Position numbers and translations under genes: made by a program. Under the pieces are notes generated by a model. It made no database searches, had not been told where the DNA came from, and saw nothing but the letters and a program-made list of their open reading frames with translations. Shown here in pieces: positions 10,610-31,994 of a stretch of 32,055 bases of DNA (positions are counted from its first letter, which is position 1; the number at the start of each line of letters is the position of its first letter). The stretch is from Actinomyces oris. Lineage in GTDB: Bacteria; Actinomycetota; Actinomycetes; Actinomycetales; Actinomycetaceae. The stretch is taken from NCBI RefSeq assembly GCF_001937665.1, contig NZ_MSKL01000028.1, forward strand, positions 1 to 32,055. Direction: 5' to 3'.

Positions 10610-10751
10610 ATTTACCCCCTCGGAAAAGCACATATCCCGCCTCGGAAAATCAAAAGAAATCCACTGAACGAATTCCCAGAATACTCTCAGGTACATTGAA
10701 GCGCTCCCCCAGGAGCAGTGGGTTACATAGTGATCGCCGCCGGACGGAACC

Positions 10752-10821
10752 GGTCGCGAGGGTTGGGGAGCCCGATGACCGATCGGTTTTCGAGGTCGCC
10801 CGGGTTGATAGGGAGCCCGAT
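10752..10821. repeat. Two imperfect 42-bp-period direct repeats
   Basis: GGTCGCGAGGGTTGGGGAGCC begins at 10752. A near copy begins at 10794, ending GGGAGCCCGAT at 10821. CGATCGG lies between them. They are non-coding as far as I can see. Confidence 0.6.
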
Positions 10822-10899
10822 CGCGAACCGCTCCGGCGAAGGGGGGTGAGTCTCCTCTGGAATATGGGATTCAGAGGCGATACCACCCTCAACGACAGG

Positions 10900-10950
10900 G
10901 GCCTGTGGGGCTCGGAGAAGTCCGAGCCCCACAGGCCGCGTCGTTTTTCG
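10900..10950. terminator. Perfect 17-bp-stem hairpin terminator
   Basis: Arms 10900-10916 and 10921-10937 are exactly complementary with a GAAG loop, the same loop as the hairpin at 8955. On the plus strand GCGTCGTTTTTCG follows. On the minus strand it lies ~50 bp after the permease stop, which it probably terminates. Confidence 0.85.
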
Positions 10951-10985: not shown

Positions 10986-11966
10986 CTATCGAATAAGGCG
11001 GGGAAGCAGACGGACACCAATCGCCATGACTACGAGCTCCACCAGGGTCTGAGTCACCACCGCAATCGGTGCCATCCCCATGGAATCGGGCAGCGCCAGA
11101 GCCAACGGCAGAACCACCAGCGAGTTACGGGTGGTCCCGGAGAAGGCGAGAGCCAGGCGCTCCTGACGTCCCTGGTGAGCCATGCGCCCAGCAATGTCTC
11201 CCACAGCCGGCATAACAAGAGCGAAAGTCACGAAGAGGGGAACAACCCGGGCGACGACGTCGGGCCGGGAGGCGACATGGGGAACCTGGGACGCGACGAC
11301 GAGTACCAGGGTCGCCATCATGAGCGGAACCATGAGCGCCGTCGTCGCTGAAGCGAGCCGGGCGGCTGACCGGAACCGGGGTGAGGCACGCCGCGTGAGG
11401 ATCGACAGCCCCATGGGCAGTGCGATCATGAGGACGAAGGCCTGCGCGAAGGGCTGCCAGCTGATACCACCGCCCTGAGCCCCAGGTGAGCCGGTGGCGA
11501 AGGCCAGCCACAGTGGCAGGACGAGGGCCTGGATGAGCATGAGAGCCGGAGATGCCGCCAGGATGCACGACCATGCGCCGCCGGCCAGACGGGTGAAGAC
11601 CATGACGTAGTCGACGCAGGGCGCCAGAAGCACCAGGAGGGTGCCGACCAGGAGCCCCGGCTCATCGGCCACCAGCCGGGACAGGGGCAGGACCACCGCC
11701 GGCACCACCAGGAAGTTGACCACCAGAAGCGCCGTCATGAACCGGGCGTCGGCGAAGGCGGCCCGCAGGCGATGGAAGGGGACACCGAGAAAGGTCGCGT
11801 ACAGCAGTGCGACCAGTGCCGGGGCGATAGCCACCTCAAGAAGGCTGCGGGCTGCAGGAGCGGCCAGCCCCAGGACGGCGCCGGCCACGAGCGCACCCAG
11901 GTACAGGACCACCTGGTGGTGCTCCATCCACGCGACCACCGGGGCCTCCTCGCCTGCGTCCTCCAT
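10986..11966 (-). CDS. Arsenite/bile-acid-type permease (ACR3/BASS superfamily)
   Basis: A 326-residue polytopic membrane protein with about ten predicted helices. APCVDYVMVFTRLAGG (about residues 116-131) resembles the cysteine-bearing segment of ACR3-type arsenite exporters. The late FSGTTRNSLVVLPLALALP resembles the second conserved discontinuous helix of the BASS fold. Proteins of this kind are annotated as arsenic resistance proteins, but substrate proof is lacking and no arsR or arsC gene adjoins it. The ATG at 11966 follows a TACGGT -10 with 6-nt spacing. The first ~11 codons and promoter are repeated at 20404-20449, marking the border of an inserted element. Confidence 0.75.
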   Translation of the reverse strand: MEDAGEEAPVVAWMEHHQVVLYLGALVAGAVLGLAAPAARSLLEVAIAPALVALLYATFLGVPFHRLRAAFADARFMTALLVVNFLVVPAVVLPLSRLVADEPGLLVGTLLVLLAPCVDYVMVFTRLAGGAWSCILAASPALMLIQALVLPLWLAFATGSPGAQGGGISWQPFAQAFVLMIALPMGLSILTRRASPRFRSAARLASATTALMVPLMMATLVLVVASQVPHVASRPDVVARVVPLFVTFALVMPAVGDIAGRMAHQGRQERLALAFSGTTRNSLVVLPLALALPDSMGMAPIAVVTQTLVELVVMAIGVRLLPRLIR

Positions 11967-11972
11967 AACGGA

Positions 11973-11978
11973 ACCGTA
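11973..11978 (-). promoter_or_regulatory. -10 element of the permease gene
   Basis: On the minus strand TACGGT lies 6 nt before the ATG at 11966, with TTACCG 16 nt further upstream as a possible -35. The same -10 is preserved in the duplicated copy at 20449-20444, where it would drive the permease/recombinase fusion. Confidence 0.5.
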
Positions 11979-12014
11979 TCGCGACCGGACGGGACGGTAA
12001 CCGTTGCCGGGCGG

Positions 12015-12848
12015 CTACGCCTCCAGGGAGTAGCCCGTCACCGGCCCGGCAGTGTTGGGCTGCCAGCCCAGCGCCGGGGCAACGTGCTCAGCGAAGGCCT
12101 GAAGGATGTGGAGATTGAAGTCGACGCCGAGCTGACTGGGGATGGTGAGCATGACGGTGTCGGCGGCATGGAGCGCCTCGTCCTGGGTCAGCTGCTCGAT
12201 GAGGACGTCGGGCTCGGCGGCGTAGGTGCGCCCGAAGGTCGACTGCAGGCCGTCAATGATGCCGATCTGGTCGCGGGAGTCCTCGCCACGCAGGGCGAAG
12301 AATCTGCGGTCGACGTCGGAGACGATCGGGAAGATGGAGCGCGAGACGCTCACACGCGGGGTCCAGTCGTGGCCGGCCTCCTTCCACGCCTCGCGGTAGC
12401 GGCGGATCTGCTCGGCCTGGAGGTGGGAGAAGCCTTCACCGGTGGCCTCGGTCAGGAGGGTCGAGCTCATGAGGTTGAGTCCCTGACGGGCGGTCCACTC
12501 GGCGGTCTCCCGTGAGCCGGCACCCCACCAGAGGCGGCGGTCCACTCCGGGGGCGTGCGGCTCGATGCGCAGACGGGCACCGGCGCCGGCACCCGGGGTC
12601 ATGCCGCTGCTGGTATCGAGGTCGGCCTGAGGGACGCCCCGGACGGCATCGAGGAACTGAGCGGTGTGGGCGTGAGCGACGTCAGCCCCGCGCGGGTCGA
12701 CGCCGCCGGTGTAACCGAAGGTCTCCCAGCCACGTACAGCCTGCTCCGGCGAGCCGCGGGAGATGCCGATGGCGATGCGCTGGTCGGTGAGCAGGTCGAG
12801 GGCGGCGACCTCCTCAGCCAGGTAGAGAGGGTTCTCGTAGCGCATGTC
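12015..12848 (-). pseudogene. 5'-truncated LLM-class flavin oxidoreductase
   Basis: The frame from DMRYENPLYLAEEVAALD to the stop matches the complete gene at 20486-21553. The first ~80 residues, including the first strands of the barrel, are missing because the element border falls at 12848. An ATG at 12845 could give a 276-residue product, but this would lack part of the FMN-binding barrel and has no recognised promoter. Upstream codons belong to the plasmid side. It is probably non-functional, though the reading frame itself is intact. Confidence 0.85.
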
Positions 12849-12873
12849 TGAGTTATGGCGTTGGACGGAACAC

Positions 12874-14778
12874 CTATTGCTTGCGGGCACGCGCAGCCCG
12901 CAGTCCGTTGGCGATGACGACGACTTCGGCGACCTCGTGCACGAGGACGACCGCTGCCAGGCCGAGCACGCCGGTGATCGCCAGCGGCAGCAGCACAGTG
13001 ATGATCGCCAAGGACAGCACGATGTTCTGGTTGATGATCCTGCCGCCGCGGCGGGCGTGGCGCAGAGCCTGCGGGATGAGGCCGAGGTCGTGGCCGGTGA
13101 AGGCGACGTCGGCGGACTCGATCGCGGCGTCGGAGCCGGTCGCGCCCATCGCGATGCCCACGGTCGCCCCGGCCAGGGCGGGCGCGTCGTTGATGCCGTC
13201 GCCGATCATCGCGGTCGGCGACGTCTCCGAGAACCCGGCGACGATGCGAGCCTTGTCCTCGGGACGCAGCTCGGCGTGCACGTCGCCGATCCCGGCCAGC
13301 TTCGCCAGCGCAGCAGCGGTGCGGGAGTTGTCGCCGGTGAGCATGCTCACCTCGACGCCCTGGTCGCGCAGGGTCCGCACGACCTCGGGGACCTCGGGGC
13401 GCAGCTCGTCGCGGACGCCGATCGCCCCGGCCAGGAAGCCGTCGACGGTGACGAGCACGCAGGTCTGCCCCTCGGCCTCCAGGTCCTCGACCCGGGCCTT
13501 GAGCGGACCGGCGTCGATCCAGCGCGGACTGCCCACCGCCACCCTGCGGCCGTCGACCAGGCCACCGATGCCGTGCCCGGCCTCCTCGGCCACGTCCTGC
13601 GCGGCGGGGGTTCCCCGGCCCGCGGCGGCGATGGCGGCGGCGAGTGGGTGCGTCGAGTGCTGCTCCACGGCGGCAGCCCAAGCAAGCACCTGCGCATCGT
13701 CGAACCCATGGGCGGCGACGATGGCGGTTACCTCGGGCCGGTTGCGGGTCAGAGTGCCGGTCTTGTCCACGGCCAGGTGCCGGATGCCGCCGAGGCGCTC
13801 GAAGGCGGCCCCGCTCTTGATGACGACGCCGAACTTGGTCGCCGCGCCGATCGCGGAGACCACGGTGACGGGCACCGCGATCGCCAGCGCGCAGGGGCTG
13901 GCCGCGACGAGGACGACCAGGGCGCGGGTGATCCAGGTCTCCGGGTCGCCGAGCAGGGACCCGAGCACGCCGACGAGGACGGCGAGGACCATCACGCCGG
14001 GCACCAGCGGGCGGGCGATCCGGTCAGCGATCCGGGCTCGGTCGCCCTTCTCGGCCTGGGCCTGCTCTACCAGCTCCACGATCGTGGTCAGCGAGTTGTC
14101 GGTGCCCGCGGCGGTCGCCTCGACCTCCAGCACGCCGGCGCTGTTGATCGCGCCCGCCGACACCGCTTCTCCGGGCGCGACCTCGACCGGGATCGATTCA
14201 CCGGTGATCGCCGAAGTGTCCAGGCTCGACCGGCCCGAGCGGACCAGCCCATCGGTCGCGACCCGCTCGCCAGGGCGGACCAGCAGCACGTCGCCGACGG
14301 CGATCTCCCTGGCCGGGACCGAGGCGGAGGTCCCGTCGCGCAGCACGGTCGCGGTCTCCGGCACGAGCTTCAGCAGCGCGCGCAGCCCGCCGCGGGCGCG
14401 GTCCATCGCCTTGTCCTCCAGGGCCTCGGCGATCGAGTAGAGGAACGCCAGCGCGGCCGCCTCCTCGACGTAGCCGAGGATCACCGCGCCCACGGCGCTG
14501 ATCGTCATCAGCAGCGCGATCCCGAGCTTGCGCTTCACAACGAGATTCCGGATCGCACCGGGCACGAACGTGTACGCGCCCAGCAGCAGGCCCGCCCAGA
14601 ACGCGACCAGCGCCGCGATGTGCAGCCCCGACCACTCCAGCGCCAGGCCGGTGCCGAACGCGACGCCGGAGAGGATCGGCACGACCAGGCCGGGATCACG
14701 CCACCACGGGCGCTCTGCCTCCTCTGCCTCGTCCGCGGGGCTGGTCGTCGGCTCGTCGCAGCCGCAGGCGGCGCTCAC
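12874..14778 (-). CDS. Heavy-metal P1B-type ATPase (Cd/Pb/Zn/Co-class exporter)
   Basis: A 634-residue membrane pump. The N-terminus carries CGC, a possible metal-binding motif, in place of a full HMA domain. Core motifs are TGES in the actuator domain, SPC at residues 294-296 in the metal-transport helix, DKTGTLT with the phosphorylated Asp338, STHP in the nucleotide domain, and GDGINDAP around Asp527. SPC and a HEVAE motif in the last helix point to a P1B-4-like or CtpG-like pump, so Cd, Pb, Zn or Co are candidates. The GTG at 14778 overlaps the cmtR stop as GTGA, so translation is coupled; an ATG 63 nt upstream inside cmtR is less likely. The gene ends 25 bp from the element border. Confidence 0.93.
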   Translation of the reverse strand: MSAACGCDEPTTSPADEAEEAERPWWRDPGLVVPILSGVAFGTGLALEWSGLHIAALVAFWAGLLLGAYTFVPGAIRNLVVKRKLGIALLMTISAVGAVILGYVEEAAALAFLYSIAEALEDKAMDRARGGLRALLKLVPETATVLRDGTSASVPAREIAVGDVLLVRPGERVATDGLVRSGRSSLDTSAITGESIPVEVAPGEAVSAGAINSAGVLEVEATAAGTDNSLTTIVELVEQAQAEKGDRARIADRIARPLVPGVMVLAVLVGVLGSLLGDPETWITRALVVLVAASPCALAIAVPVTVVSAIGAATKFGVVIKSGAAFERLGGIRHLAVDKTGTLTRNRPEVTAIVAAHGFDDAQVLAWAAAVEQHSTHPLAAAIAAAGRGTPAAQDVAEEAGHGIGGLVDGRRVAVGSPRWIDAGPLKARVEDLEAEGQTCVLVTVDGFLAGAIGVRDELRPEVPEVVRTLRDQGVEVSMLTGDNSRTAAALAKLAGIGDVHAELRPEDKARIVAGFSETSPTAMIGDGINDAPALAGATVGIAMGATGSDAAIESADVAFTGHDLGLIPQALRHARRGGRIINQNIVLSLAIITVLLPLAITGVLGLAAVVLVHEVAEVVVIANGLRAARARKQ

Positions 14779-15143
14779 GAGGCGTCCCCCGAACTGCTCG
14801 CGGCGCAGCAGCCCGGCACCGAGCAGGCCGGGTCGATGCACGGCGCGCTCTCGTCCACGGCGAGGGTCACATCGACCAGTGCCGTCAGCGCCGCAGCCAG
14901 GTGCGGGTCGGCGATCTCGTAGCGAGTCTGGCGGCCCTCGGGCTCGGCGACCACGATCCCGCAGTCGCGCAGGCAGGTCAGGTGGTTGGACACGTTCGAG
15001 CGGGTCAGCCCCAGCTCGCGCGAGAGCACCGCGGGGTGGCTCGGGCTGTCGAGCAGGGACATCAGGATGCGGGAGCGCGTCGGGTCGGCCATGGCCCGGC
15101 CGAGCCGGTTCATGACGTCAAGACGCGAAGCAATGGTCAGCAT
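14775..15143 (-). CDS. cmtR: CmtR-type ArsR/SmtB metal-sensing repressor
   Basis: A 122-residue winged-helix repressor. Cys57 and Cys61 lie in HLTCLRDCG of the recognition helix and Cys102 in the tail. These are exactly the three positions that bind Cd or Pb in mycobacterial CmtR. The tail adds a further Cys-rich CIDPACSVPGCC. Metal binding should release it from its operator and switch on the coupled P-type ATPase. The ATG at 15143 follows a strong TATAGT -10 with leaderless spacing. Its stop overlaps the ATPase start by 4 nt. Confidence 0.95.
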   Translation of the reverse strand: MLTIASRLDVMNRLGRAMADPTRSRILMSLLDSPSHPAVLSRELGLTRSNVSNHLTCLRDCGIVVAEPEGRQTRYEIADPHLAAALTALVDVTLAVDESAPCIDPACSVPGCCAASSSGDAS

Positions 15144-15150
15144 GCACTGA

Positions 15151-15180
15151 ACTATACAGCAGCCGCTGACCTAATGTCCA
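15151..15180 (-). promoter_or_regulatory. Promoter of the cmtR-ATPase operon
   Basis: On the minus strand TGGACA (15180-15175), an 18-nt spacer and TATAGT (15156-15151) precede the ATG by 7 nt, giving a leaderless mRNA. The repressor operator probably overlaps this promoter. The 88-bp space 15144-15231 holds nothing else. Confidence 0.75.
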
Positions 15181-15231
15181 GTTGTCGCGGCTGCCGCACG
15201 CGCTGCGCGCGCTTGCCCTCGTGAGGCGTGA

Positions 15232-16137
15232 TCACCTCTTGCGCCAGCGGGGCCACTTCGGCATCCCGCGGCCCTTCCAGGTCTCCACGAGACCCGCAAC
15301 CCAGCGGACGGACGCGAAGAGCCCGTAGCCGGCCCCGGCGAGGCCAGCGCCGACCACGAGCCACCGGCCGATGCCGAGCCACACGCTCCCGTCCACGTCC
15401 AGCGCCCACTGAACACCCGTGATGAGCCCGGCGATGCCCATCCAGAGACCGGCGACGACCACGGCCACCGGCAGGAGAACGAGGCACATCGCGGCGGCGG
15501 CGGACCAGAGCTGTCGCGCCTCCAGCTTCGCCGTCGCGGCGATGATCCGCTCCGCCCGCGCGTTCGAGGCGTCGAGGCTCGCGGTCATCGTGGCCGAAGC
15601 CTCCCCGGCGACCTGCTCGACAGCCTTCTCGACCCGTTCCTCGGTGCGCTTCTCGATCCGCTGGACCGCGCCGCCGACCTGGCTCACGAGCTTCTGGTTC
15701 GCTGTGACCTGCGCCTTCAGACCCTCAATCGCCGAGGCCGTAGCCGCGCGATTCTTCTGCGCCTCCGCGACCAAGCTCCGCGACGCGGCGTTCAAGCTCT
15801 CGCCGTTGAGACTCTGCGCGAACTCGCCGAGCGTGCTCGCGATCTCGTTCTGCCTGCTCTCGATACTCGCGATCCTCGCGGACACGTCACTGGAGGGCGA
15901 GGAGGTCGACGCCGGGGCCGTGATCCGCTCCAGCCGCCTCGTCGTCTCCTCGTCCATGACCTTCACGAACCCCGCGAGCTTCTTCTGCTGTTCGGTCAGC
16001 GTGGCGATCCTCGTGTTCTGCGCCTCGACGGCGGCGAGGATCGAGGTCAACAGCTCCATCGTCTCCGGACTGCCGAGCTGCTGCTGCGACTGCTCGGGCT
16101 CGTTCTGCTGCTTCAGCCTGTCGAGCGCTGCGCTCAT
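15232..16137 (-). CDS. Nested in-frame protein from internal start of mobA
   Basis: An ATG inside the relaxase gene (16137) is preceded at 7 nt by AAGGAG (16150-16145), the best ribosome site of the whole operon. It would give a 301-residue protein in the same frame: a Gln-rich coiled-coil region followed by two membrane segments, without the nuclease domain. Same-frame internal starts are known in other mobilization genes, for example RSF1010 mobA/repB. A membrane-anchored MobB-like accessory factor is a plausible role. Expression is inferred from sequence only. Confidence 0.6.
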   Translation of the reverse strand: MSAALDRLKQQNEPEQSQQQLGSPETMELLTSILAAVEAQNTRIATLTEQQKKLAGFVKVMDEETTRRLERITAPASTSSPSSDVSARIASIESRQNEIASTLGEFAQSLNGESLNAASRSLVAEAQKNRAATASAIEGLKAQVTANQKLVSQVGGAVQRIEKRTEERVEKAVEQVAGEASATMTASLDASNARAERIIAATAKLEARQLWSAAAAMCLVLLPVAVVVAGLWMGIAGLITGVQWALDVDGSVWLGIGRWLVVGAGLAGAGYGLFASVRWVAGLVETWKGRGMPKWPRWRKR

Positions 16138-17001
16138 GTTCCTTCTCCTTCGGTAGTCGAAGAACGCCTGCGCGCCCTCCGGGGTGAAGTCCGCCGAGAG
16201 GGCGCTCGCGCGCTTGCGGCGCTCGGCGCGGCCGGACTCGCCGCGGCGATCCTCGATGTAGAGCGTCCAGGTCTCTTGCCCGGCGCGCTTGCCCTTCTTG
16301 CTGACGGGGCTGTGCAACCGCATCCGCGGCACCCGCTCCCCGTCATCGCCGAGCCGCTGGTTCTGCTCCTCGATCACCGAGACCAGACCGGCCTTGTCCA
16401 CCGCCCGGGGATCGGCCAGCGCCGCGCTCATCCGGTCGCCCATCTCGCGGTCGAGCGATCCCTCGGCGAAGTCCTCGCGGCGCAGCTCCCAGTCCTTCGG
16501 TGCGTGCTCCAGCCGCTTCACGACCGAGAGCCCGTGTTCTCGCATCAGCTGGTCGTTCGCCGACTGGACGCCCCGCTGATTCCCGGCCTTGCGGTCGTGG
16601 AACGTGCGATAGTCCGAGAGCGCCTTCCCCGTCCGGTTGTTGTGGTTGATGACCAAGATGTGGTTGTGCGGCTTCTTGCCCCGCCCATCCACATGACTGA
16701 CTACGAGGCAGTCGGAATCCGGGTGCATCTTCTTCGCGAGCTGATAACCGAGATCGTTCACCCGCTGCACGTCCTCCGGACTCTTCGGGTCGAACTCCTC
16801 GTCGCTGAACGACTGGCGGTAATGCACCGCCTCGACCTCGCGCGTCGTGTTCTGCGTGAGCGACCGAGCGCGCGCCGAGAACGCGCCGGGGCCTCCCGGC
16901 ACATCGCACGTGATCGCGATGCCCCGCTCGTCCTCCTTGCCACGGATATAGCGCTCCGTGTCGGCGGCGCTGGCGCTCGCGCTGTAGTGCGTGGTGCTCA
17001 T
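15232..17001 (-). CDS. mobA: MobA-type relaxase with C-terminal membrane domain
   Basis: A 589-residue relaxase/mobilization nuclease. The N-terminal ~200 residues form the HUH relaxase domain: SHVDGRGKKPHNHILVINH supplies His103, His112 and His114 for the metal site, and upstream tyrosines (Tyr6, Tyr61) are nick-tyrosine candidates. After residue ~290 a long Gln/Glu/Ala-rich coiled-coil region leads to two hydrophobic segments near the C-terminus. It would nick oriT and lead the strand into a helper's transfer pore. The ATG overlaps the mobC stop as ATGA. An internal ATG at 16137 has its own strong ribosome site. Confidence 0.92.
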   Translation of the reverse strand: MSTTHYSASASAADTERYIRGKEDERGIAITCDVPGGPGAFSARARSLTQNTTREVEAVHYRQSFSDEEFDPKSPEDVQRVNDLGYQLAKKMHPDSDCLVVSHVDGRGKKPHNHILVINHNNRTGKALSDYRTFHDRKAGNQRGVQSANDQLMREHGLSVVKRLEHAPKDWELRREDFAEGSLDREMGDRMSAALADPRAVDKAGLVSVIEEQNQRLGDDGERVPRMRLHSPVSKKGKRAGQETWTLYIEDRRGESGRAERRKRASALSADFTPEGAQAFFDYRRRRNMSAALDRLKQQNEPEQSQQQLGSPETMELLTSILAAVEAQNTRIATLTEQQKKLAGFVKVMDEETTRRLERITAPASTSSPSSDVSARIASIESRQNEIASTLGEFAQSLNGESLNAASRSLVAEAQKNRAATASAIEGLKAQVTANQKLVSQVGGAVQRIEKRTEERVEKAVEQVAGEASATMTASLDASNARAERIIAATAKLEARQLWSAAAAMCLVLLPVAVVVAGLWMGIAGLITGVQWALDVDGSVWLGIGRWLVVGAGLAGAGYGLFASVRWVAGLVETWKGRGMPKWPRWRKR

Positions 17002-17588
17002 GAGGCCGCCCGATCCCCGAGCAGGGCGCGGACCTCGCGCAGCAACTCGATCAGCTCGGGCACCTCCGCCGACAGCGCCACTGACTCACCAGCCCGCGCC
17101 CGGCGGTCGAGGTCGTTGACGTTGATCGCCAGCGGGCGAATCTGCGCGGCTAGCTCGCGAGCATCCGCCGACGCCTGCACCCGCGCCTCGACCCCGAGCA
17201 GGTGCGCGGCCACGGCGGCGTCCAACTCCTCGCTCCGAGAGGCGTGGAGGGCATCCCGGACGACGGTCCGCACCCACGTGCTCGGAGCCAGCCCGAGCCG
17301 CTTCGCACGAGTGCGAAGCGCCGCGAGCGTCTCCTCTCCGAAGTCGGTATCGAGCTTCGCGCGGCCCCCACGACGACGCTTCGCGCCGCCGTGACTCTGA
17401 CGCACAGCCTCCGCATCAGCCCGACCGGTGTTCACCTGGGAGTCGGTCTGCTGCTCCACCTGTACGCCAGAGTGGCAAGCAGTAGCCGTGTCGGACATTT
17501 CGCTGGCGCTCATGTCCTCCCCGGCTGCTTGCGAGGGGCCTCCGGCCCCCTCGACCCCCTGGAAGAGCGCATCGCGTTCGGTGCTCAT
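16998..17588 (-). CDS. mobC: MobC-like relaxosome accessory protein
   Basis: A 196-residue protein with a variable polar N-terminus, a basic KRRRGGRAK segment, a ribbon-helix-helix-like DNA-binding region near LGLAPSTWVRTVVRDAL, and the C-terminal IRPLAINVNDLDRRARAG typical of MobC-type mobilization proteins. It would bind oriT and help the relaxase open the strand. It overlaps both neighbours by ATGA (rep stop at 17585, mobA start at 17001), so all three are translationally coupled. Confidence 0.85.
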   Translation of the reverse strand: MSTERDALFQGVEGAGGPSQAAGEDMSASEMSDTATACHSGVQVEQQTDSQVNTGRADAEAVRQSHGGAKRRRGGRAKLDTDFGEETLAALRTRAKRLGLAPSTWVRTVVRDALHASRSEELDAAVAAHLLGVEARVQASADARELAAQIRPLAINVNDLDRRARAGESVALSAEVPELIELLREVRALLGDRAAS

Positions 17589-18994
17589 GCGGCACCTCCG
17601 ATCAGCGCCAGCGGCACGTCAGGGCTCCGCACCGCGAGCCCGCCCAGCAGCTCAGCAACCGCGCCCTCAGCGTCATGTTCCCCCGAGGTCTCCGGACCGT
17701 AGGTCAGTTCCCGCGACCCGACGTTCTGGTGATACGCGTTGCCGTACATGCCGGGCGTGTGTGCGGCGGTCGGGATGCTGCACTGGTGCCACTCGTAGGG
17801 CTCGATCTTCCCAATGTGCTGCACGAGGTAACGATTGATGTCGTCGGCGCGATAGACCTTCACGACCGAGGCCAAGCGGCGGATGAACTGGTCCAACGCC
17901 TCGTCCACGTTGCCCTTCTGGCGGGCGTAGTAGAAGAACTCGACAGGCTCGATCGTCGCCGTGATGACGATAAGGCGCGGGGCCACCTCGCCCTTGTTCT
18001 TGTACCGAGCCTTCGCAGGCGAGGCGTTGTACGGATCAAGCAGCAGCCAGTCGTTCGCATCCATCGCCGAGGCCCGCAGATCGTCCAGCAGCAGCACCTC
18101 CTCGCCTCGCCAGTCATCAAGCGGGTTCCCCGTCGCGGCCCGGTAGACCTGCCACCGCTCGCCGTGCGCGTTCGCCGCGTTGATCGCCTCGGTGATGAAG
18201 TCCGTGGCGAACCGGGTCTTGCCGATCCCGGCATCCCCATGGACGAACACCACGTGCGTCGAGAACTCACCGGCGCGGAGCTTCGCCGCCGCCCGGTATG
18301 CGCGGCGCTGGCCGTAGGCCGACAGCGCGTCGTCGATCTCCCGCTGATGCCGCGAGTAGATGTCGAACAGCTCGTCCGTGAGCATGATCTGATCCCGCGT
18401 GAACTCGCCCTGGAGCACGCGCTCGCGCATGTCCTCGAAGTTCTCGGCGACGACCTTCTTCTTCACGTGCGCGCGCCCCTTGAGCAAGGTCTCCCGACGC
18501 TGGGCGTCGATCCCGAGGTAGTCAGGCCCACGCACCGTAGCGACCTCCGAAGCCGCGTATTGGTGCTTGTCCGCGTACTTCACGTGCGTCAGATACGACA
18601 GCATGTTGTCGTAGGCGTACCGCCCGCGGCCCGGCTTCTCGACGTACTGGGGCTCGACGCCGATGCCGAACGCGAGCCGATCCAGCGGTGCGCTCTTCGC
18701 ACGGCTGGCGAACTTGATGACCGCGTGCAGGTGATCGGGCTTCGGCTCGATCACCAGAGCCTTCTCCGTGTCGCTCCAGACCTCGCGCTCGTCCTTGTCA
18801 TGCACGATGCCGTAGGCCTCGACGACCTCGCAGCCGGTGGCCTCGAGCCGCTGCACCACGTAGGCGAGGATCGCCTCGGCTCCCTGCTGGAGCAGCGCGG
18901 CCCCGTTCGGGTCCTCGGCAGCCCAGGTCCAGTACGACGGATCGAGGTACTGCGTGAGCCCGATGCTCGTCGGGTTGTTCTCCTGCTTAGCCAC
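17585..18994 (-). CDS. rep: Rolling-circle Rep protein with SF3-type helicase domain
   Basis: A 469-residue replication initiator. The N-terminal Rep_2-like endonuclease has the HUH motif EPKPDHLHAVIKF (His88, His90) and the catalytic-tyrosine region SYLTHVKYADKHQY (probably Tyr134). The C-terminal half is an ATPase with Walker A GDAGIGKT (253-260) and Walker B VLLLDD (300-305). It would nick the double-strand origin and unwind plasmid DNA. GTG 18994 is preferred because homology begins there; GTG 19003 is equally possible, and the longer open frame to 19228 runs through the origin-like region. Its chromosomal location suggests an integrated replicon. Confidence 0.9.
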   Translation of the reverse strand: MAKQENNPTSIGLTQYLDPSYWTWAAEDPNGAALLQQGAEAILAYVVQRLEATGCEVVEAYGIVHDKDEREVWSDTEKALVIEPKPDHLHAVIKFASRAKSAPLDRLAFGIGVEPQYVEKPGRGRYAYDNMLSYLTHVKYADKHQYAASEVATVRGPDYLGIDAQRRETLLKGRAHVKKKVVAENFEDMRERVLQGEFTRDQIMLTDELFDIYSRHQREIDDALSAYGQRRAYRAAAKLRAGEFSTHVVFVHGDAGIGKTRFATDFITEAINAANAHGERWQVYRAATGNPLDDWRGEEVLLLDDLRASAMDANDWLLLDPYNASPAKARYKNKGEVAPRLIVITATIEPVEFFYYARQKGNVDEALDQFIRRLASVVKVYRADDINRYLVQHIGKIEPYEWHQCSIPTAAHTPGMYGNAYHQNVGSRELTYGPETSGEHDAEGAVAELLGGLAVRSPDVPLALIGGAA

Positions 18995-19051
18995 GGCGAC
19001 CACCCCCGCCGCGGACAGCGCGGAGGGCCTCAGAGAGAGTGCGGCGCCTAA

Positions 19052-19094
19052 ATGACCCCCTATTGACCCCCAAATGAGACCCAAAATGATCCCA
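19052..19094. repeat. Phased iteron-like repeats upstream of rep
   Basis: Four copies of (A/T)TGA followed by a C-rich tail (ATGACCCC, TTGACCCC, ATGAGACCC, ATGATCCC) start at 19052, 19063, 19075 and 19087, one helical turn apart. They lie ~60-100 bp before the rep start. This is a reasonable place for the Rep binding site or double-strand origin. The remaining 18995-19345 region shows no convincing gene. Confidence 0.55.
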
Positions 19095-19345
19095 CGAGGC
19101 CACGCGACGGAGCGCGGGCGGAACCGACCGCTGACCAGGCACGTTGTTGCAGGACGCGGCAATCGACAAGCCCTTGCCGCGCCCGTAGGAACGAATGAGG
19201 CTCCCGAAACTCTTAGAGTGCGAAGCACGGCTGCGGACCGTCATCACGACGACGGGCGGCCCGCCTTCGGCGGGTGCCAGGCCAGGCCCTCCGGGCGGGG
19301 TCAGGTCGGCGGGAGCGGTGCTGAGGTTGCGTGCGTCGGCGCGCA

Positions 19346-19594
19346 TCAGCGACCACCGCCCCGGCCGTAGCGCTTGATGACAGCCTGGTGCGTGACGCCG
19401 AGGGCGTCGCCGATCTTCGCCCAGGTCACCCCATCGGCGCGGGCGTCGGCGACGGCGATCTCGACGGACTCCTCCAGCACGGAGCGGAGCACGCCGAGGT
19501 CGTAGAGACGTGCCTCGGACTCGGCGAGGGAGGGGTCGCCCTGTCGCCAGCGGAAGCCGTTCACGTGGTCGAAGGCGGCGGAGTTGGCGCTCAT
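19346..19594 (-). CDS. Small helix-turn-helix protein
   Basis: An 82-residue protein whose C-terminus, VTWAKIGDALGVTHQAVIKRY, is a clear helix-turn-helix of the kind found in small actinobacterial plasmid and phage regulators. The ATG shares its first base with the stop of the upstream 70-residue gene (TGATG), so they are coupled. It lies directly upstream of the rep region and may control copy number or transfer (inference). No enzymatic domain is present. Confidence 0.75.
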   Translation of the reverse strand: MSANSAAFDHVNGFRWRQGDPSLAESEARLYDLGVLRSVLEESVEIAVADARADGVTWAKIGDALGVTHQAVIKRYGRGGGR

Positions 19595-19806
19595 CAGTGA
19601 CCACCGCCCATCACGGCGGCGACCGCGGCGCGCTGTCGCGGGGTCAGGGGCGTGCGAGCCAGGCGTTCACCGGCCAGACGACCAGCAGCACGAGCGGCGG
19701 CGATGACGGGATCGAGGCCGTCTGCCTGCGGAGAAGGAGTGGAGCCCTGATCGAGGCCAGGGCGGTCGAGCGCGGATGCGCGGGGAACGTCGATAACGAC
19801 AGACAT
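19594..19806 (-). CDS. Small hypothetical plasmid protein
   Basis: A 70-residue protein of unknown function. The C-terminal half is alanine/arginine rich with the phrase ARTPLTPRQRAAVAAVM, which suggests an amphipathic helix. GAGGA lies 6 nt before the ATG at 19806, a good ribosome site. It is the first gene of the leftward plasmid operon and is coupled to the HTH gene. A nested 34-bp palindrome lies ~145 bp upstream. Confidence 0.6.
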   Translation of the reverse strand: MSVVIDVPRASALDRPGLDQGSTPSPQADGLDPVIAAARAAGRLAGERLARTPLTPRQRAAVAAVMGGGH

Positions 19807-19948
19807 CGGAAGTCCTCAGACATGAGTATCTTCCGGTTCCCCGCCACGGTAATTGGGCTGTTTGACCGGCTACTCATCCGGGAGCAGAACCCCGCGCTTC
19901 TAAGTCGCGGCCCCGGTGGGATCTTCTTGTCTGCAACCATTCTCCCAC

Positions 19949-19982
19949 GAGTCGACTCACCATTGCAATGACGAGTCGACTC
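19949..19982. promoter_or_regulatory. 34-bp symmetric array of three palindromes
   Basis: GAGTCGACTC (19949-19958), CATTGCAATG (19961-19970) and GAGTCGACTC (19973-19982) are each perfect palindromes separated by AC, so the whole block is symmetric apart from the spacers. A TGAGTCA follows at 19984. It lies between the serine-recombinase remnant and the start of the plasmid operon (19807-19987 has no gene). Candidate roles are a dimeric-repressor operator, an origin element, or a recombination site. Confidence 0.7.
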
Positions 19983-19987
19983 ATGAG

Positions 19988-20437
19988 TCAGTCGCGACGC
20001 GGCTCTATCCGAATCAGGTCGGGGTCGAATTTCACGTGACCGGGCGTGATGGGCTCGATGGTCACTGTCACCAGCTCGTCCACGAGCATCCGGCGGCGGT
20101 CCACGTCCAACACCTTCCACTTCGCCTCGACCACCTCGCGGCGCTCCGCGGTGCCGACCGGCTCCTCGACGTCCGCGAGCAGCTTCGCCGCCGCCGACAC
20201 CGAACGGTCGAGCAGCTCCGCGTCGATCTCGTCGATGCGGGCCTTCACGTCGTTGATCGCTGCCGTTATCTCCAGGACCGGCTGATGGATGTCGCGCAGC
20301 AGCGGGCTCAGCTCCTTCACCCGATCGACCAGGGCGTTCCGCTCCGTCAGCAGCTCCTCGCGATCCGGCCCATCGTCCTCCTGTGGCATCACGAGGTCGT
20401 GCACGACCACCGGGGCCTGATCGCCTGCGCCCTCCAT
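19988..20437 (-). pseudogene. Permease tip fused to C-terminus of large serine recombinase
   Basis: A 149-codon frame begins with MEGAGDQAPVV, a variant of the first ~11 codons of the permease gene (MEDAGEEAPVV), and keeps that gene's TACGGT -10. From about codon 17 it becomes the coiled-coil and C-terminal tail of a large serine recombinase: a long Glu/Arg-rich helix, then DRRRMLVDELVTVTI and the characteristic end FDPDLIRIEPR. The catalytic serine domain, recombinase domain and zinc ribbon are absent, so it cannot recombine by itself. It marks a deletion or capture event at the element's right border. Confidence 0.8.
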
Positions 20438-21313
20438 GACGGAACCGTATCGCGGCCGGACCGGACGGTGACCGCTGCCGGAGGTCTACACCTCCAGGGA
20501 ATAGCCCGTCACCGGTCCGGCGGTGTTGGGCTGCCACCCCAGTGCCGGGGCGACATGCTCTGCGAAGGCCTGCAAGATGTGGAGGTTGAAGTCGACGCCG
20601 AGCTGGCTGGGGATGGTGAGCATGACGGTGTCGGCGGCATGGAGCGCCTCGTCCCGGGCGAGCTGCTCGATGAGGACGTCGGGCTCGGCGGCGTAAGTGC
20701 GCCCGAAGGTCGACTGCAGGCCGTCGATGACGCCGATCTGGTCGTGGGAGTCCTCGCCGCGCAGCGCGAAGAACTTCCGGTCGACCTCGGAGACGATCGG
20801 GAAGATGGAGCGCGAGACGCTCACACGCGGGGTCCAGTTGTGGCCGGCCTCCTTCCACGCCTCGCGGTAGCGGCGGATCTGCTCGGCCTGAAGGTGGGAG
20901 AAGCCCTCGCCAGTGGCCTCGGTCAGGAGGGTCGAGCTCATGAGGTTCAGACCCTGGCGGGCGGTCCACTCGGCGGTCTCCCGCGAGCCGGCACCCCACC
21001 ACAGGCGGCGGTCCACGCCGGGGGCGTGCGGCTCGATACGCAGGCGGGAGCTGGCGCCGGGTGCCATGCCACCGCTGGTGTCGAGGTCCGCCTGCGGGAC
21101 GCCCCGGACGGCATCGAGGAACTGAGCGGTGTGGGCGTGAGCGACGTCGGCTCCGCGCGGGTCGGCGCCGCCGGTGTAACCGAAGGTCTCCCAGCCACGT
21201 ACAGCCTGCTCCGGCGAGCCGCGGGAGATGCCGATGGCGATGCGCTGGTCGGTGAGCAGGTCGAGGGCGGCGACCTCCTCGGCCAGGTAGAGAGGGTTCT
21301 CGTAGCGCATGTC
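20404..21313. repeat. Right ~0.91-kb direct repeat flanking the integrated plasmid
   Basis: This is the counterpart of 11933-12848. It spans the permease 5' tip, the permease-LLM spacer and most of the LLM gene. Similarity stops after CGCATGTC at 21313, beyond which the LLM gene continues normally here but not in the left copy. Confidence 0.95.
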
Positions 21314-21553
21314 AATGACGCCGGTGCCGACCTCGATGCGCTTGGTACGGGCACCGGCCGCGGAGAGCAGCGGGATGGGGGCCGCGGCCTGGCGGGCATA
21401 GTGGTGGACGCGCCAGTAGGCGCCATTGACTCCGATCTCGTCAGCGCCGACGGCGATCTCGACGGCGTCCTTGAGCGCCTGACCGGCGTCGGGGTCGCCA
21501 GGGCCGCGACCGTGTCCGTAGTGTCCAAAGCTGAGGAACCCGAATGCTTTCAT
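20486..21553 (-). CDS. LLM-class flavin-dependent oxidoreductase (complete copy)
   Basis: A 355-residue luciferase-like monooxygenase fold protein, FMN or F420 dependent. MKAFGFLSFGHYG forms the first barrel strand. IEVGTGVIDMRYENPLYLAEE and AIGISRGSPEQAV are the conserved flavin-binding segments, and RLWWGAGSRETAEW lies in the insertion region. The length is complete. An inverted repeat spans the start codon. In the presumed ancestral order the permease followed this gene; here it is followed by the permease/recombinase fusion. The oxidised substrate is unknown. Confidence 0.9.
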   Translation of the reverse strand: MKAFGFLSFGHYGHGRGPGDPDAGQALKDAVEIAVGADEIGVNGAYWRVHHYARQAAAPIPLLSAAGARTKRIEVGTGVIDMRYENPLYLAEEVAALDLLTDQRIAIGISRGSPEQAVRGWETFGYTGGADPRGADVAHAHTAQFLDAVRGVPQADLDTSGGMAPGASSRLRIEPHAPGVDRRLWWGAGSRETAEWTARQGLNLMSSTLLTEATGEGFSHLQAEQIRRYREAWKEAGHNWTPRVSVSRSIFPIVSEVDRKFFALRGEDSHDQIGVIDGLQSTFGRTYAAEPDVLIEQLARDEALHAADTVMLTIPSQLGVDFNLHILQAFAEHVAPALGWQPNTAGPVTGYSLEV

Positions 21554-27590: not shown

Positions 27591-27602
27591 ACAGGGCCGC
27601 CT

Positions 27603-28052
27603 TCAGGAGCGAAGGTGCGCCTCGTAGGCCTCGATCTCGCCGACCTTGGGACCGTAGTTGCTGGCGGGATCGTGGCGCAGGTCGAGCCAGATATCGATGA
27701 GCGCCCAGGCAGCGGGTGCCGCGATGACGTTCTGCCCCATGCACAGGATCTGGGCGTCGTAGTTCTCCACCGAGCCGCGCACGGTGAGCAGGTCGTGCGC
27801 GGTCGCCGCACGCACCCCCGGGACCTTGTTGGCGGCGATGGCGGTTCCCACGCCGGTGCCGCAGATGAGAACACCGCGGTCGGCCCGCCCCTCGGCGACC
27901 GCTCTGGCGACCCGGAAGGAGACCTCCGGGTAGGTGATGTCCGGTGCGGACAGGTCGACGACGTCGCTCACGCGCTCATCCTCGACCAACCGCTCTTCGA
28001 TGGCCTCCTTCAGGAGGGCTCCGTTGCCTGGAGCGCCGATGGCGATTCGCAT
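27603..28052 (-). CDS. RpiB/LacAB-family sugar-phosphate isomerase (copy 1)
   Basis: A 149-residue protein of the RpiB fold. CGTGVGTAIAANKVPGVRAA carries the catalytic-base cysteine and the anion hole, and the downstream NYDAQILCMGQNVI matches the family. The N-terminal SDHAG signature of true ribose-5-phosphate isomerase B is replaced by GAPGNG, so the substrate is probably different, for example another pentose or tetrose phosphate (inference). It is ~88 % identical by eye to the copy at 29762-30211. It is followed by a VOC remnant and a terminator. Confidence 0.85.
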   Translation of the reverse strand: MRIAIGAPGNGALLKEAIEERLVEDERVSDVVDLSAPDITYPEVSFRVARAVAEGRADRGVLICGTGVGTAIAANKVPGVRAATAHDLLTVRGSVENYDAQILCMGQNVIAAPAAWALIDIWLDLRHDPASNYGPKVGEIEAYEAHLRS

Positions 28053-28106
28053 GCGCCAAGTCTCTCAGGCCTCGTCACGGAAGGCGAGTACGCCCCGGTC
28101 AATGTG

Positions 28107-28981: not shown

Positions 28982-29170
28982 TCATTCTCCTTCATAGGAG
29001 GCCTCGCTGGTGAAGGACTCGATGAGCCGGGAGGCGAAGGACTCCGCAGCCGACAGGAGGCGGGGACCACGCACCAGCATGGTGACATCGCAGCCCAGGG
29101 CGGACATCCACGTGGCGGCCTCGCAGGCGACGACCCCGCCACCGACGACGATGAGATGCTGCGGGATCTA
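28982..29170 (-). pseudogene. Internal fragment of the FAD/NAD disulfide oxidoreductase
   Basis: 29018-29169 is nearly identical to 31079-31230 and encodes the NAD-binding region QHLIVVGGGVVACEAATW through LLSAAESFASRLIE. Beyond it the frame runs into unrelated codons and stops at 28982. Both ends of the gene are missing, so it cannot work. Confidence 0.9.
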
Positions 29171-29171
29171 C

Positions 29172-29428
29172 GGCATGTCGAGCCTCAGGCCAACCGCAGC
29201 GGAGTGATGGCATCGATCTGCATCGAAAGACGGTCCTCCGCCACGTCAAGGTCGTATTGGGTCTGCAGGTTCAGTCAGAACTGCGCGGATACCCCGAAGT
29301 ACGTGCCGAGCCGCAGCGCCGTATCCGCGGTCACCGCAGGCTCGGAGGGCGAGCTCCCATCCCTGGCTCAGGAGGTCAGAGGGTCGTAGGCGGTGACGGC
29401 GCAGACACCCAGGAGGAGGATGCCGAAG
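29172..29428. repeat. Segmental duplication, left copy
   Basis: 257 bp aligning with 31799-32055 (which continues past the window). It covers the HigA remnant and the end of the membrane-protein gene. It is joined at 29170 directly to the oxidoreductase fragment; relative to the right copy ~0.57 kb (31231-31798) is deleted here. Confidence 0.93.
29185..29334 (-). pseudogene. HigA antitoxin C-terminal remnant with nonsense codon
   Basis: This encodes the tail of a HigA-type antitoxin, VTADTALRLGTYFGVSAQF, then TGA (29277-29275) where the other copy has TGG for Trp, then LNLQTQYDLDVAEDRLSMQI. The N-terminal helix-turn-helix half is absent and no higB toxin is present. It is doubly disabled. 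Confidence 0.85.
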
Positions 29429-29564: not shown

Positions 29565-29761
29565 GGTCGGTGAGTGAAAATTCCGTCTTGGCGCCCCTTC
29601 CAGCGAGCAGTGCCATCATGGGGAGCGTGGACGCAAGAACCGAGCACACACCGGTGGACGCCTGAGGGACCCGACATGAGACGCGCACTGCCCACCGTGG
29701 AGCTCATGGGCGCTGGGATCGTCATCTACGGTGCCACCCAGGCGCTTCGACGAGGCCGCCG

Positions 29762-30211
29762 TCAGGAGTGGAGACGCGTCTCGTAGGCGGTGATCTCGCC
29801 GACCTTGGGGCCGTAACTGCTGGCGGGATTGTGGCGCAGGTCGAGCCAGATGTCGATGAGCGCCCAGGCGGCGGGGGCCGCGATGACGTTCTGCCCCATG
29901 CACAGGATCTGGGCGTCGTAGTTCTCCACCGAGCCGCGCACGGTGAGCAGGTCGTGCGCGGTCGCCGCACGCACCCCCGGGACCTTGTTGGCCGCGATGG
30001 CGGTTCCCACGCCGGTGCCGCAGGTGAGAAGCCCTCGGTCAACCCGCCCCTCGGCGACTGCCCGGGCGACCTGGAAGGAGACCTCCGGGTAGGTGATCTC
30101 CGGCGTGGACAGGTCGAGGACGTCGCTCACGCGCCCGTCCTCAGCCAGTCGTTCCGCAAGAGCGTCCTTCAGGAGGGCTCCATTGCCCGGGGCACCGATG
30201 GCGATTCGCAT
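29762..30211 (-). CDS. RpiB/LacAB-family sugar-phosphate isomerase (copy 2)
   Basis: A 149-residue paralogue of the protein at 27603-28052, with about 18 amino-acid differences concentrated in the first third and the last 20 residues. The middle, including CGTGVGTAIAANKVPGVRAA, is identical. It likewise lacks the SDHAG signature (GAPGNG instead). It lies ~110 bp downstream of the complete oxidoreductase gene on the same strand, so the two probably form an operon. Confidence 0.85.
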   Translation of the reverse strand: MRIAIGAPGNGALLKDALAERLAEDGRVSDVLDLSTPEITYPEVSFQVARAVAEGRVDRGLLTCGTGVGTAIAANKVPGVRAATAHDLLTVRGSVENYDAQILCMGQNVIAAPAAWALIDIWLDLRHNPASSYGPKVGEITAYETRLHS

Positions 30212-30319
30212 GCGCCCAGTCTCTCAGACTGATGCCACTCAAGGCGAGGCTGCTCCAGGCTGATATCGCTGAAGACCTCTCATCCGCTTCCCATGGACGC
30301 CACGTGGCGCCGCCGCATA

Positions 30320-31753
30320 TCACCTCTTCGGGTGGAGCAACTCGCTCGGGAGGGATTCGATGAGGCGCAGCCATATCTCACTGGCGGTGGGGTAGGCGGG
30401 CACGGCGTGACGCAGCCGATGGACGGGGACGCCCGCAGTGATGGCGACGGTGGCGGCGTGGATGAGCTCACCCGCACCGGGGCCGACGAAGGTGGCTCCC
30501 AGCACGGCCCCCGTCTGCCGGTCGACGACGAGCTTGGCCTCACCGTGGGCATCGTCGCGCAGGAGGGCAGCTCCAGCAGCCGAGGTGTAACCGACCTGGG
30601 CGGTGACGACGTCGTGGTCGAGGGCCCGGGCCCTCTGCTCGGTCAGGCCGCTGGAGGCGAGCTGGGGATCGGTGAAGACGACTTGCGGGACCGGGATGCT
30701 CTCGGGCACTGGTTCGGGCTCGCAGCCGGCCGCAAGGGCGGCGATCCTCTCCCCTACAACGCGTGCTCGGTACTTGCCTATGTGGGTCAACTGGGCCTCA
30801 CCACTGGCGTCGCCGACGGCGTAGAGCCAGTCGGGCAGGCGACCGGCCAGGACGTCGTCGGGCTCCAGGCCGACGGTCTCCAGCCCAATGCCGGTCAGTA
30901 GCGGGCGACGGCCGGTGGCGACCAGAATCTCATCGGCCTCGATGGTTCGACCGGCGCAGGTGACCGTGACAGGGCCGCCATGGATACGACCGAGCCCGGT
31001 GTCACTGGCCTGGGACCGCTCGGCGGCAGTCACCCGAGCATCCGTTATGACGGTGACACCGCGGGCAGTAAGAGCCTCCTCGATGAGCCGGGAGGCGAAG
31101 GACTCCGCAGCCGACAGGAGGCTGGGGCCACGCACCAGCATGGTGACGTCGCTGCCCAGGGCGGACATCCACGTGGCGGCCTCGCAGGCGACGACCCCGC
31201 CACCGACGACGATGAGATGCTGCGGGATCTCCTGCACGCCGGTGGCGTCACGCGAGTCCCAGGCCTCAAGGCCTTGGAACGCAGCAGGCATGACGGGCTG
31301 CGCGCCAGTGGCGAGAACGACAGCGCGGCGGGCGCGAAGGACCCGCTCCCCCTCAGCGGTTCTCACAGCGACGCGCCGTTCACCGTCGAGGCGAGCCCAT
31401 CCGCGAACGACGTCGAGGCCGGCACCCTCGGCCCAGCGCACCTGAGCAGCGTCGTTGTAGCGGGAAACCCACTCGTCACGACGCTCGAGCAGATCGAGCG
31501 CAGACAGTTCGGCAGGGCGCAGGCCACGGAGGTTGGCGGACGCCGCCGCGACCTCGATAGGCACGAGGAACGCCTTGCTGGGCATGCAGGCGTAGTAGGA
31601 GCACTCGCCACCCAGGAGCTCGCCCTCAACGAGGACCGCGGTCAGGTCGGTGCCCTTGATGGCGTACTGGGCGACGTTCTCCCCCGCCGGCCCGCCACCG
31701 ATCACGACGACATCATAGGTGCTGGTCTGCTCAGGCACTGTTTCCCTGCTCAT
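30320..31753 (-). CDS. FAD-dependent pyridine nucleotide-disulfide oxidoreductase
   Basis: A 477-residue class I flavoprotein disulfide reductase. The FAD motif is VVVIGGGPAGEN, the redox-active CxxxxC lies in GGECSYYACMPSKAF, the second nucleotide-binding motif is GGGVVACEAA, the FAD ribityl site is YAVGDASGEAQLTHIG, and the dimerisation domain is C-terminal. At the active-site base position the usual His-Pro-Thr-x-x-Glu reads AYPTASE, with Tyr for His, as in dihydrolipoyl-dehydrogenase-like or mercuric-reductase-like paralogues of uncertain substrate. ATG 31753 is chosen because the FAD motif follows within 20 residues. A 38-bp palindrome ends 12 bp upstream. Confidence 0.9.
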   Translation of the reverse strand: MSRETVPEQTSTYDVVVIGGGPAGENVAQYAIKGTDLTAVLVEGELLGGECSYYACMPSKAFLVPIEVAAASANLRGLRPAELSALDLLERRDEWVSRYNDAAQVRWAEGAGLDVVRGWARLDGERRVAVRTAEGERVLRARRAVVLATGAQPVMPAAFQGLEAWDSRDATGVQEIPQHLIVVGGGVVACEAATWMSALGSDVTMLVRGPSLLSAAESFASRLIEEALTARGVTVITDARVTAAERSQASDTGLGRIHGGPVTVTCAGRTIEADEILVATGRRPLLTGIGLETVGLEPDDVLAGRLPDWLYAVGDASGEAQLTHIGKYRARVVGERIAALAAGCEPEPVPESIPVPQVVFTDPQLASSGLTEQRARALDHDVVTAQVGYTSAAGAALLRDDAHGEAKLVVDRQTGAVLGATFVGPGAGELIHAATVAITAGVPVHRLRHAVPAYPTASEIWLRLIESLPSELLHPKR

Positions 31754-31764
31754 GCCACCGATGC

Positions 31765-31802
31765 TGCCACGCATCTCGGCCGGCCGGCCGAGATGCGTGG
31801 CA
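31765..31802. terminator. Perfect 38-bp palindrome upstream of oxidoreductase
   Basis: The sequence is fully self-complementary, with its centre in GGCCGGCCGGCC, and would form a very stable hairpin. It lies 12 bp before the oxidoreductase ATG and 10 bp after the HigA remnant's stop, so it may terminate upstream transcription or attenuate the reductase mRNA. Only one side survives at the deletion border in the left copy. Confidence 0.75.
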
Positions 31803-31811
31803 TGTCGAGCC

Positions 31812-31961
31812 TCAAGCCACCTGCAGCGGGGTAATGGCGTCAATCTGCATCGAGAGGCGATCCTCCGCCACATCAAGGTCATACCGGGTCTGCAGGTTCA
31901 GCCAGAACTGCGCGGATACCCCGAAGTACTTGCCGAGCCACAGCGCCGTATCCGCGGTCAC
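31812..31961 (-). pseudogene. HigA antitoxin C-terminal remnant
   Basis: An uninterrupted 49-codon tail, VTADTALWLGKYFGVSAQFW then LNLQTRYDLDVAEDRLSMQI and DAITPLQVA, typical of HigA-type XRE antitoxins. The DNA-binding half is missing: upstream codons run in frame into the stop of the preceding membrane-protein gene. GTG 31961 is the only possible start. It is probably non-functional, but without the nonsense codon of the other copy. Confidence 0.8.
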
Positions 31962-31994
31962 CGCAGGCTCGGAGGGCGAGCTCCCATCCCTGGC

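Follow-up and report, generated by a model that had tools for sequence, protein, structure and literature searches.

The window analysed here, the first 32,055 bases of a 47,809-base contig (NZ_MSKL01000028.1) in a 3.1-Mb Actinomyces oris genome (G000), carries a derivative of what appears to be an 8.65-kb actinobacterial integrative mobilizable element (IME) equipped with a serine recombinase, a CRESS-like replication protein (Rep), a relaxase, the sensor CmtR and a Cd-type P-type ATPase. The element would insert site-specifically, in either orientation, into a conserved spot of a gene for a luciferase-like monooxygenase (LLM) flavoenzyme; sites and orientations are seen by comparison of genomes, which points to such a reaction. 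For the window copy, a history of site-specific insertion, formation of a new junction with loss of the integrase, and recombination within the LLM gene is considered probable.

Layout of the locus

The locus is delimited by two direct repeats (11933-12848 and 20404-21313) that are identical at 846 of 916 positions (92.4%, 6 gap positions; E=0 in a BLASTN comparison of the window with itself). A separate repeat search recovered the same pair, at a spacing of 8465-8471 bases, and the ~0.91-kb direct repeats of the initial annotation are thereby confirmed; the coordinates also bear out its description of a complete permease gene and a truncated LLM gene on the left and a permease tip and a complete LLM gene on the right. 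The genes of the block all lie on the minus strand, along which the complete LLM gene (21553-20486) is followed by the permease tip, a serine recombinase remnant, two small open reading frames (ORFs), rep, an ORF in the mobC position, the relaxase gene, cmtR, the P-type ATPase gene, the LLM 3' part (12015-12848, cut at its 5' side) and the complete permease gene. The features are as follows.

10986-11966, minus: complete SBF/ACR3-like permease gene, downstream partner of the LLM gene, native side (Pfam PF01758, E=1e-12; NCBIfam acr3 below cut-off)
11933-12848, minus: left repeat copy, consisting of the displaced LLM 3' part (codon ~81 to end) and the permease start; taken as the native allele (self-comparison, allele analysis)
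12838-12848, minus: hybrid att site bordering the element on its ATPase side, with the crossover dinucleotide deduced to be the TA of 12838-12839 (junction letters match the forward insertions L037/L067, L042 and L076)
12874-14841, minus: heavy-metal (Cd-type) P-type ATPase gene (TIGR01512 and TIGR01525 over cut-off)
14775-15143, minus: cmtR, Cd(II)/Pb(II) sensor of the ArsR family (NF047906, 175.6 bits, cut-off 150)
15232-17001, minus: relaxase gene mobA, fused in frame with an overlapping downstream ORF via a small deletion (PF03432, E=5e-13)
16998-17588, minus: small ORF in the mobC position (no Pfam or NCBIfam match)
17585-19228, minus: rep, with an HUH origin-binding domain and an SF3-type (superfamily 3) helicase (PF01719, PF00910)
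19346-19594, minus: small ORF with a weak helix-turn-helix match (PF13384 below cut-off)
19594-19806, minus: small ORF, function unassigned (no Pfam match)
19988-20403, minus: serine recombinase remnant that retains roughly the final 140 of 478 codons and lacks the catalytic N-terminal domain (98-99% identity to residues 337/338-478 of the intact 478-aa protein)
20404-20412, minus: junction J1 between permease tip and recombinase, with 6 bp of perfect microhomology and 8 of 9 positions alike (sequence comparison)
20404-20437, minus: 5' tip of the permease gene, which forms one 149-aa ORF (19988-20437) with the recombinase remnant by in-frame fusion (same fusion in proteins P0001-P0006)
20486-21553, minus: complete LLM gene, the restored target (PF00296, E=1e-24)
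21095-21113, minus: recombination breakpoint within the right LLM copy, with native sequence upstream and A. oris-type sequence downstream as far as J1 (53 informative sites; pattern reached in none of 10000 permutations)
21303-21313, minus: unoccupied attB within the complete LLM gene (sequence as in the uninterrupted LLM genes of G031, G022, G001 and G045)

The placement of rep, mobC, mobA and metal-resistance genes between the repeats, as originally proposed, is supported by family matches for rep, the relaxase, cmtR and the ATPase; mobC is named from its position only, because it has no family match. Two features had been overlooked, namely the C-terminal remnant of the serine recombinase at 19988-20403 and the fusion in the relaxase ORF. 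The latter extends the relaxase to 589 aa, compared with 427-428 aa in 15 of 16 copies examined, and with its frame altered in this way mobilization of the window copy may be impaired. In the intact relative L042 (A. massiliensis), Resolvase (PF00239) and Recombinase (PF07508) domains identify a large serine recombinase. The 149-aa ORF of the window that holds the remnant has no Pfam match, and no second match to the element recombinase exists in the G000 genome. A misassembly of the window is unlikely, the same layout and junction being present in the A. oris genome G020 and in the single-contig genome G021. Near the 3' end of the complete permease gene and a near-palindrome (10891-10945), an Actinomyces-1 RNA (RF02928, 101.6 bits) is found on the plus strand at 10733-10844.

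Insertion into LLM genes across Actinobacteria

The Rep was used in a pattern scan of a species-genome collection, which reaches close relatives only and yielded 44 loci, with hosts that include Brevibacterium, Gordonia, Corynebacterium, Leucobacter, Janibacter, Kocuria, Arachnia and Pauljensenia. A full-length recombinase stands beside LLM sequence at 32 of them (14 forward, 18 inverted). Both halves of the LLM gene are present at 30 of these (12 forward and 18 inverted); the other two, both forward, have the C half only and the N half only, respectively. The remaining loci comprise a full recombinase located at the end of a contig that shows no LLM sequence, an A. oris locus with a full LLM gene and a partial recombinase (L079, in G020), a contig-limited locus with a partial recombinase (L065, in A. 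naeslundii G018), and nine loci lacking a recombinase above 65% identity, three of which hold LLM pieces and six none. The LLM gene is broken at about codons 81-83, with tblastn edges that drift at some loci (e.g. L069, L073 and L085). Within the genus, the Rep occurs in 9 of 49 genomes, including one at 54% identity and one in pieces; A. massiliensis G017 (L098) and A. bowdenii G003 (L067) have a full recombinase and a split LLM gene, and G026 is rearranged and has a full recombinase.

One or both ends of eight insertions besides the window were compared, and a few of the border letters vary. In forward insertions, the LLM gene up to ...GACATGCGC-TA runs into the recombinase side of the element, and the ATPase side reads CTCAGACATGCGC-TA-CGAG; in inverted insertions, the two LLM halves are swapped. 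Uninterrupted LLM genes (G031, G022, G001 and G045) read GTCATCGACATGCGC-TA-CGAGAACC. The attP deduced from L042, L066 and L076 contains an 18-base perfect palindrome, ACATGCGCTAGCGCATGT, centred on TA, from which the recombinase ends of L067 and L068 deviate by one letter. Such a palindromic attP would explain the free orientation of insertion. In the window, the left border (12838-12848) has the att letters of the family, and the right border is a microhomology junction instead of an att site. The family letters at the left border, together with the full recombinase at 32 of 44 loci, make it most likely that the element first entered the LLM gene by site-specific recombination. Uninterrupted LLM loci, suggested as a check in the initial annotation, were found in related genomes: G031, G022, G001, G036, G045, G040 and G014 each have a single strong LLM match and otherwise scraps, with the permease gene directly adjoining the LLM gene in G036, G045 and G040 and wholly or largely absent from the other four. 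Two separate native LLM loci are disfavoured by these seven genomes with one strong match each.

The element family varies in sequence and content. Identity to the intact copy L042 is about 99% in some copies, 87-94% in many and lower still in a small number. In several (e.g. L075, L077 and L080) the alignment ends short of cmtR and the ATPase gene, and these copies therefore carry different cargo. Fourteen copies from several actinobacterial genera were compared in detail. The 13 picked for near-identity differ at 7-28 positions over 5.3-7.6 kb, the window showing 15-21 differences from six near-identical copies outside Actinomyces; the fourteenth, from Flaviflexus, is 8-10% away. The maximum of 28 differences among the 13 copies points to a recent and wide spread of the metal-resistance version. 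Apart from these, Gordonia alkaliphila (L107) has a shortened inverted copy from which the recombinase, the beginning of rep and LLM codons 84-103 are missing, the deletion being one-ended and leaving the target unrestored, and at L042 the displaced LLM 3' half (14008-14879) matches only in separate fragments, as if decaying.

Restoration of the target and recombination at the locus

The right border of the window belongs to a small set of junctions that join recombinase sequence to the LLM-permease region. The exact 24-mer of J1 is present in three of the 49 genus genomes (G000, G020 and G021) and missing from the other 46. Among proteins, clusters P0001-P0006 comprise 48 member sequences of 149 aa with the J1 fusion, and P0020 (one member) starts alike. 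A different junction is found in the single-contig genome G023, in which the element is inverted and the recombinase, retained from about codon 120 and broken in frame near codon 184, adjoins sequence that lies upstream of a complete LLM gene. The draft contig of G018 begins at yet another joint, with recombinase codon about 321 next to LLM-upstream sequence, as also seen in protein P0007 (two members), and its LLM side reads through an intact attB to the contig end. This is probably a third junction of the kind, its LLM restoration being deduced from draft contig ends. Microhomology at the three joints amounts to 6, 9 and 9 bp, the last two measured against the G020 flank and the G017 recombinase; random joins reach at least 6 bp in 0.3% and at least 9 bp in 0.007-0.02% of cases. 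A further internal deletion near the start of rep is shared by G020 and G021 and is absent from G000, consistent with J1 being older than this deletion.

These junctions suggest that, in oral Actinomyces, joining at microhomology within the recombinase gene brought in an LLM-permease segment and removed the catalytic portion of the recombinase; the joint itself is seen, and the order of events would follow one of two routes. An aberrant circle may have captured its own flank and re-entered by a single crossover, or an incoming allele with an empty site may have paired homologously on one side and been joined illegitimately within the recombinase gene. Either route would leave the LLM gene whole and the element stripped of its integrase between direct repeats of 0.91 kb.

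A second line of evidence comes from the alleles of the LLM gene. The left LLM copy differs at 53 informative sites from all six copies of an A. oris-type group (G018, G023 and two each from G020 and G021). At the first 8 of these sites the right copy is invariably like the left copy, and at 44 of the following 45 it is A. oris-type (the exception being alignment position 626), a pattern reached by none of 10000 permutations that places the breakpoint at 21095-21113. The 5' end of the window LLM gene is 93.8-94.6% identical to the A. oris-type group, compared with 97.9-99.2% among G020, G021 and the full G023 copy. The right copy is thus recombinant, and homologous recombination in the LLM gene therefore shaped the locus. 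The native LLM gene could have been linked to the junction segment by a crossover at the breakpoint, or by one further 5' with conversion from the left copy. There is also evidence that the G021 repeats recombine with each other: they have in common an identical run of 477 bp, reached in none of 5000 permutations, and nine alleles seen in G021 alone, the signature of conversion. Identical runs of 115 bp in G000 (P 0.006) and 146 bp in G020 (P 0.03) barely exceed what some between-genome control pairs show (P 0.013 and 0.033), and therefore only G021 was counted.

Relatedness along the element differs from that of its surroundings. In 500-bp bins (aligned bins 20000-13001), the G000 element is 99.2-100% identical to those of G020, G021, G023, G017 and G003, with one bin missing in G020 and G021, and the flanking bins drop to 67-97%. 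A 6-kb core segment matches G000 at 93% in G023, 90% in G020 and G021 and 89% in G018, where another 0.8 kb matches at 85%; identity is far lower in G017 and G003. In the window lineage, as the breakpoint shows, homologous recombination at about 21.1 kb put a native LLM 5' portion together with an A. oris-type 3' portion and J1, and import of a J1-bearing element from an A. oris-type source appears to be the simplest reading. Alternatively, the window lineage may itself have formed J1 on an A. oris-type allele that came in, with the left copy then acting as donor for conversion. The element would now be expected to excise and transfer by homologous recombination only, and RecA-type excision of the window copy is plausible.

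Several observations weigh against this account. The left copy is native at the att end from the first informative site (alignment position 20), where donor sequence would be expected from a plain single crossover, and such a crossover then needs a conversion tract or a second exchange. At the 99.7% level, G000, G020 and G021 do not have the sequences adjoining J1 and the att end in common, and later exchange of the flanks must therefore be assumed. The element single-nucleotide polymorphisms (SNPs) do not group the three J1 carriers, informative sites being few and conflicting, and a second 6-kb core segment was matched over 1.4-1.6 kb only (G018, G020, G021 and G023), at 95-98%, a greater identity than that of the first segment. 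In addition, no unique allele shared next to J1 was found, the letters of the permease tip being common in related genomes.

The most durable alternative, which overlaps with the second route above and is regarded as a serious if tentative candidate, proposes that one-sided recombination of incoming linear DNA, for example during transformation, both made and spread J1 without any circle. A route named homology-facilitated illegitimate recombination has reportedly been described (PMC6382021), and the microhomology at the joins would suit it. The repeat copies differ by 7-8% in the window and by 14% over the duplicated LLM 5' region in G023, and with this divergence the extra copy is probably foreign. 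For the window, a double exchange with linear DNA would have to place its other crossover no more than about 20 bp from the end of the element, or else conversion has since removed the trace.

In Campbell-type integration, a single crossover inside a shared segment leaves the replicon flanked by direct repeats. The initial annotation proposed such an event, in which a plasmid with a captured LLM-permease segment entered the empty locus by one homologous crossover and no site-specific step. This would yield the exact layout seen, the element encodes Rep and a relaxase, the right border has no att site, and the right LLM copy is recombinant as predicted of a reciprocal product; a left copy that is native at the att end is not among the predictions of the plain model. 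The left border is explained by the site-specific system, a recombinase remnant is present, and a full recombinase accompanies a broken LLM gene at most loci of the family. An att core with an active integrase at the borders had been named as what would speak against the crossover, and half of this was found: the left border is an att site, the right is not, and the window recombinase is truncated. The free plasmid looked for as a check did not emerge, as none of 72,556 plasmid records covers 80% of the interior, matches the rep stretch at the DNA level or matches the junction; among the best 20 of 1754 records, only the ATPase-cmtR part was matched. Twenty-four distant plasmid Reps were found, all under 60% identity, and a search of IMG/VR with the Rep gave no relative. 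As a complete history the single crossover is thus disfavoured and considered unlikely; as a late step, following site-specific insertion and loss of the integrase, it stays alive and is supported by the recombinant right copy, with the shared segment seemingly acquired after integrase-driven insertion.

Vertical descent, with J1 arising once in a common ancestor of G000, G020 and G021 and never being transferred, would account for the same locus and junction in three species of one genus; it is quite improbable given the recombinant right LLM copy and the 19-24 SNPs in 7.2 kb of element, against 90% identity of the 6-kb core segment to G000. The notion that the element carries a module of LLM 3' part and permease tip to restore its target upon insertion by its own integrase, as tRNA-gene elements restore the tRNA, agrees with a left repeat that starts at the att site and is nonetheless highly improbable, because a full LLM copy occurs at none of the 30 loci with a full recombinase and both LLM halves, and the genomes with a full copy have a truncated recombinase.

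Relation to known elements and other features of the window

Elsewhere in the window, two LacAB_rpiB-type isomerase genes (27595-28068 and 29754-30227; the first checked in Pfam) are 89.7% identical and lie about 2.2 kb apart. Positions 29018-29428 are an abridged copy of the adjacent pyridine-nucleotide oxidoreductase region, made up of two pieces that match 31079-31236 and 31799-32055 (96% and 93%); the pieces are 562 bases apart in the longer copy and directly adjoin in the short one, which indicates that one duplicate has an internal deletion. A perfect 38-base palindrome lies at 31765-31802, and a tandem repeat of about 30 bases with two alternating unit types occupies positions 1-167 at the contig start.

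The window element falls into a kind of mobile DNA that is already known. IMEs with serine recombinases have been described in general terms (PMC5704250), and relatives of the element resemble them in holding a recombinase, a relaxase, cargo and att letters at both ends in a conserved gene. The relaxase (PF03432) comes without a transfer pore gene among the element ORFs scanned, and the coupling-protein family of type IV secretion systems has one match elsewhere in the G000 genome. The window copy differs in that it has no full-length integrase of its own, the catalytic portion of the recombinase being gone along with one att junction, and in that its target gene is whole again. Integrated pCRESS plasmids of the YLxH supergroup (pCRESS4-8) represent the second point of comparison (Kazlauskas et al., 2019; PMC6668415). 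There, 97.5% of such Reps outside pCRESS7 and 9 are stated to lie in site-specifically integrated elements. The window Rep shares the HUH endonuclease and SF3 helicase, with PF01719 and PF00910 over cut-off, and the YLTH read by eye in its translation fits YLxH of nuclease motif III as defined in that paper. In the passages of PMC6668415 used here, neither this element nor the LLM target, the two orientations or integrase-less derivatives are mentioned; its supplement may list the element. In Streptococcus suis, integrative and conjugative elements of the Tn5252 family insert in the luciferase-like monooxygenase gene llmO (PMC7168690, PMC9652813). They are likened here by chromosomal target only, and they differ in being conjugative and in belonging to another phylum.

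Among the open-access titles and abstract starts listed by a literature search, none describes this element. On that scope, what seems undescribed is the recurrent return of a whole target gene together with integrase loss, combined with signs of homologous recombination at the locus. A more far-reaching reading, put forward tentatively, is that the element swapped site-specific for homology-directed integration by capturing a piece of the target locus in place of its integrase, and that it might spread as a RecA-dependent mobilizable circle among Actinomyces species, always at the same locus and leaving the target intact; in closely related oral species, such a switch would have arisen at least twice, and three times in all probability. 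A natural series, from a split target with a full-length integrase to a repaired target with a broken one, is offered by related genomes whose elements are nearly identical. This series makes it testable how hosts domesticate such an element while keeping its cargo, and whether the element can keep spreading on homologous recombination alone.

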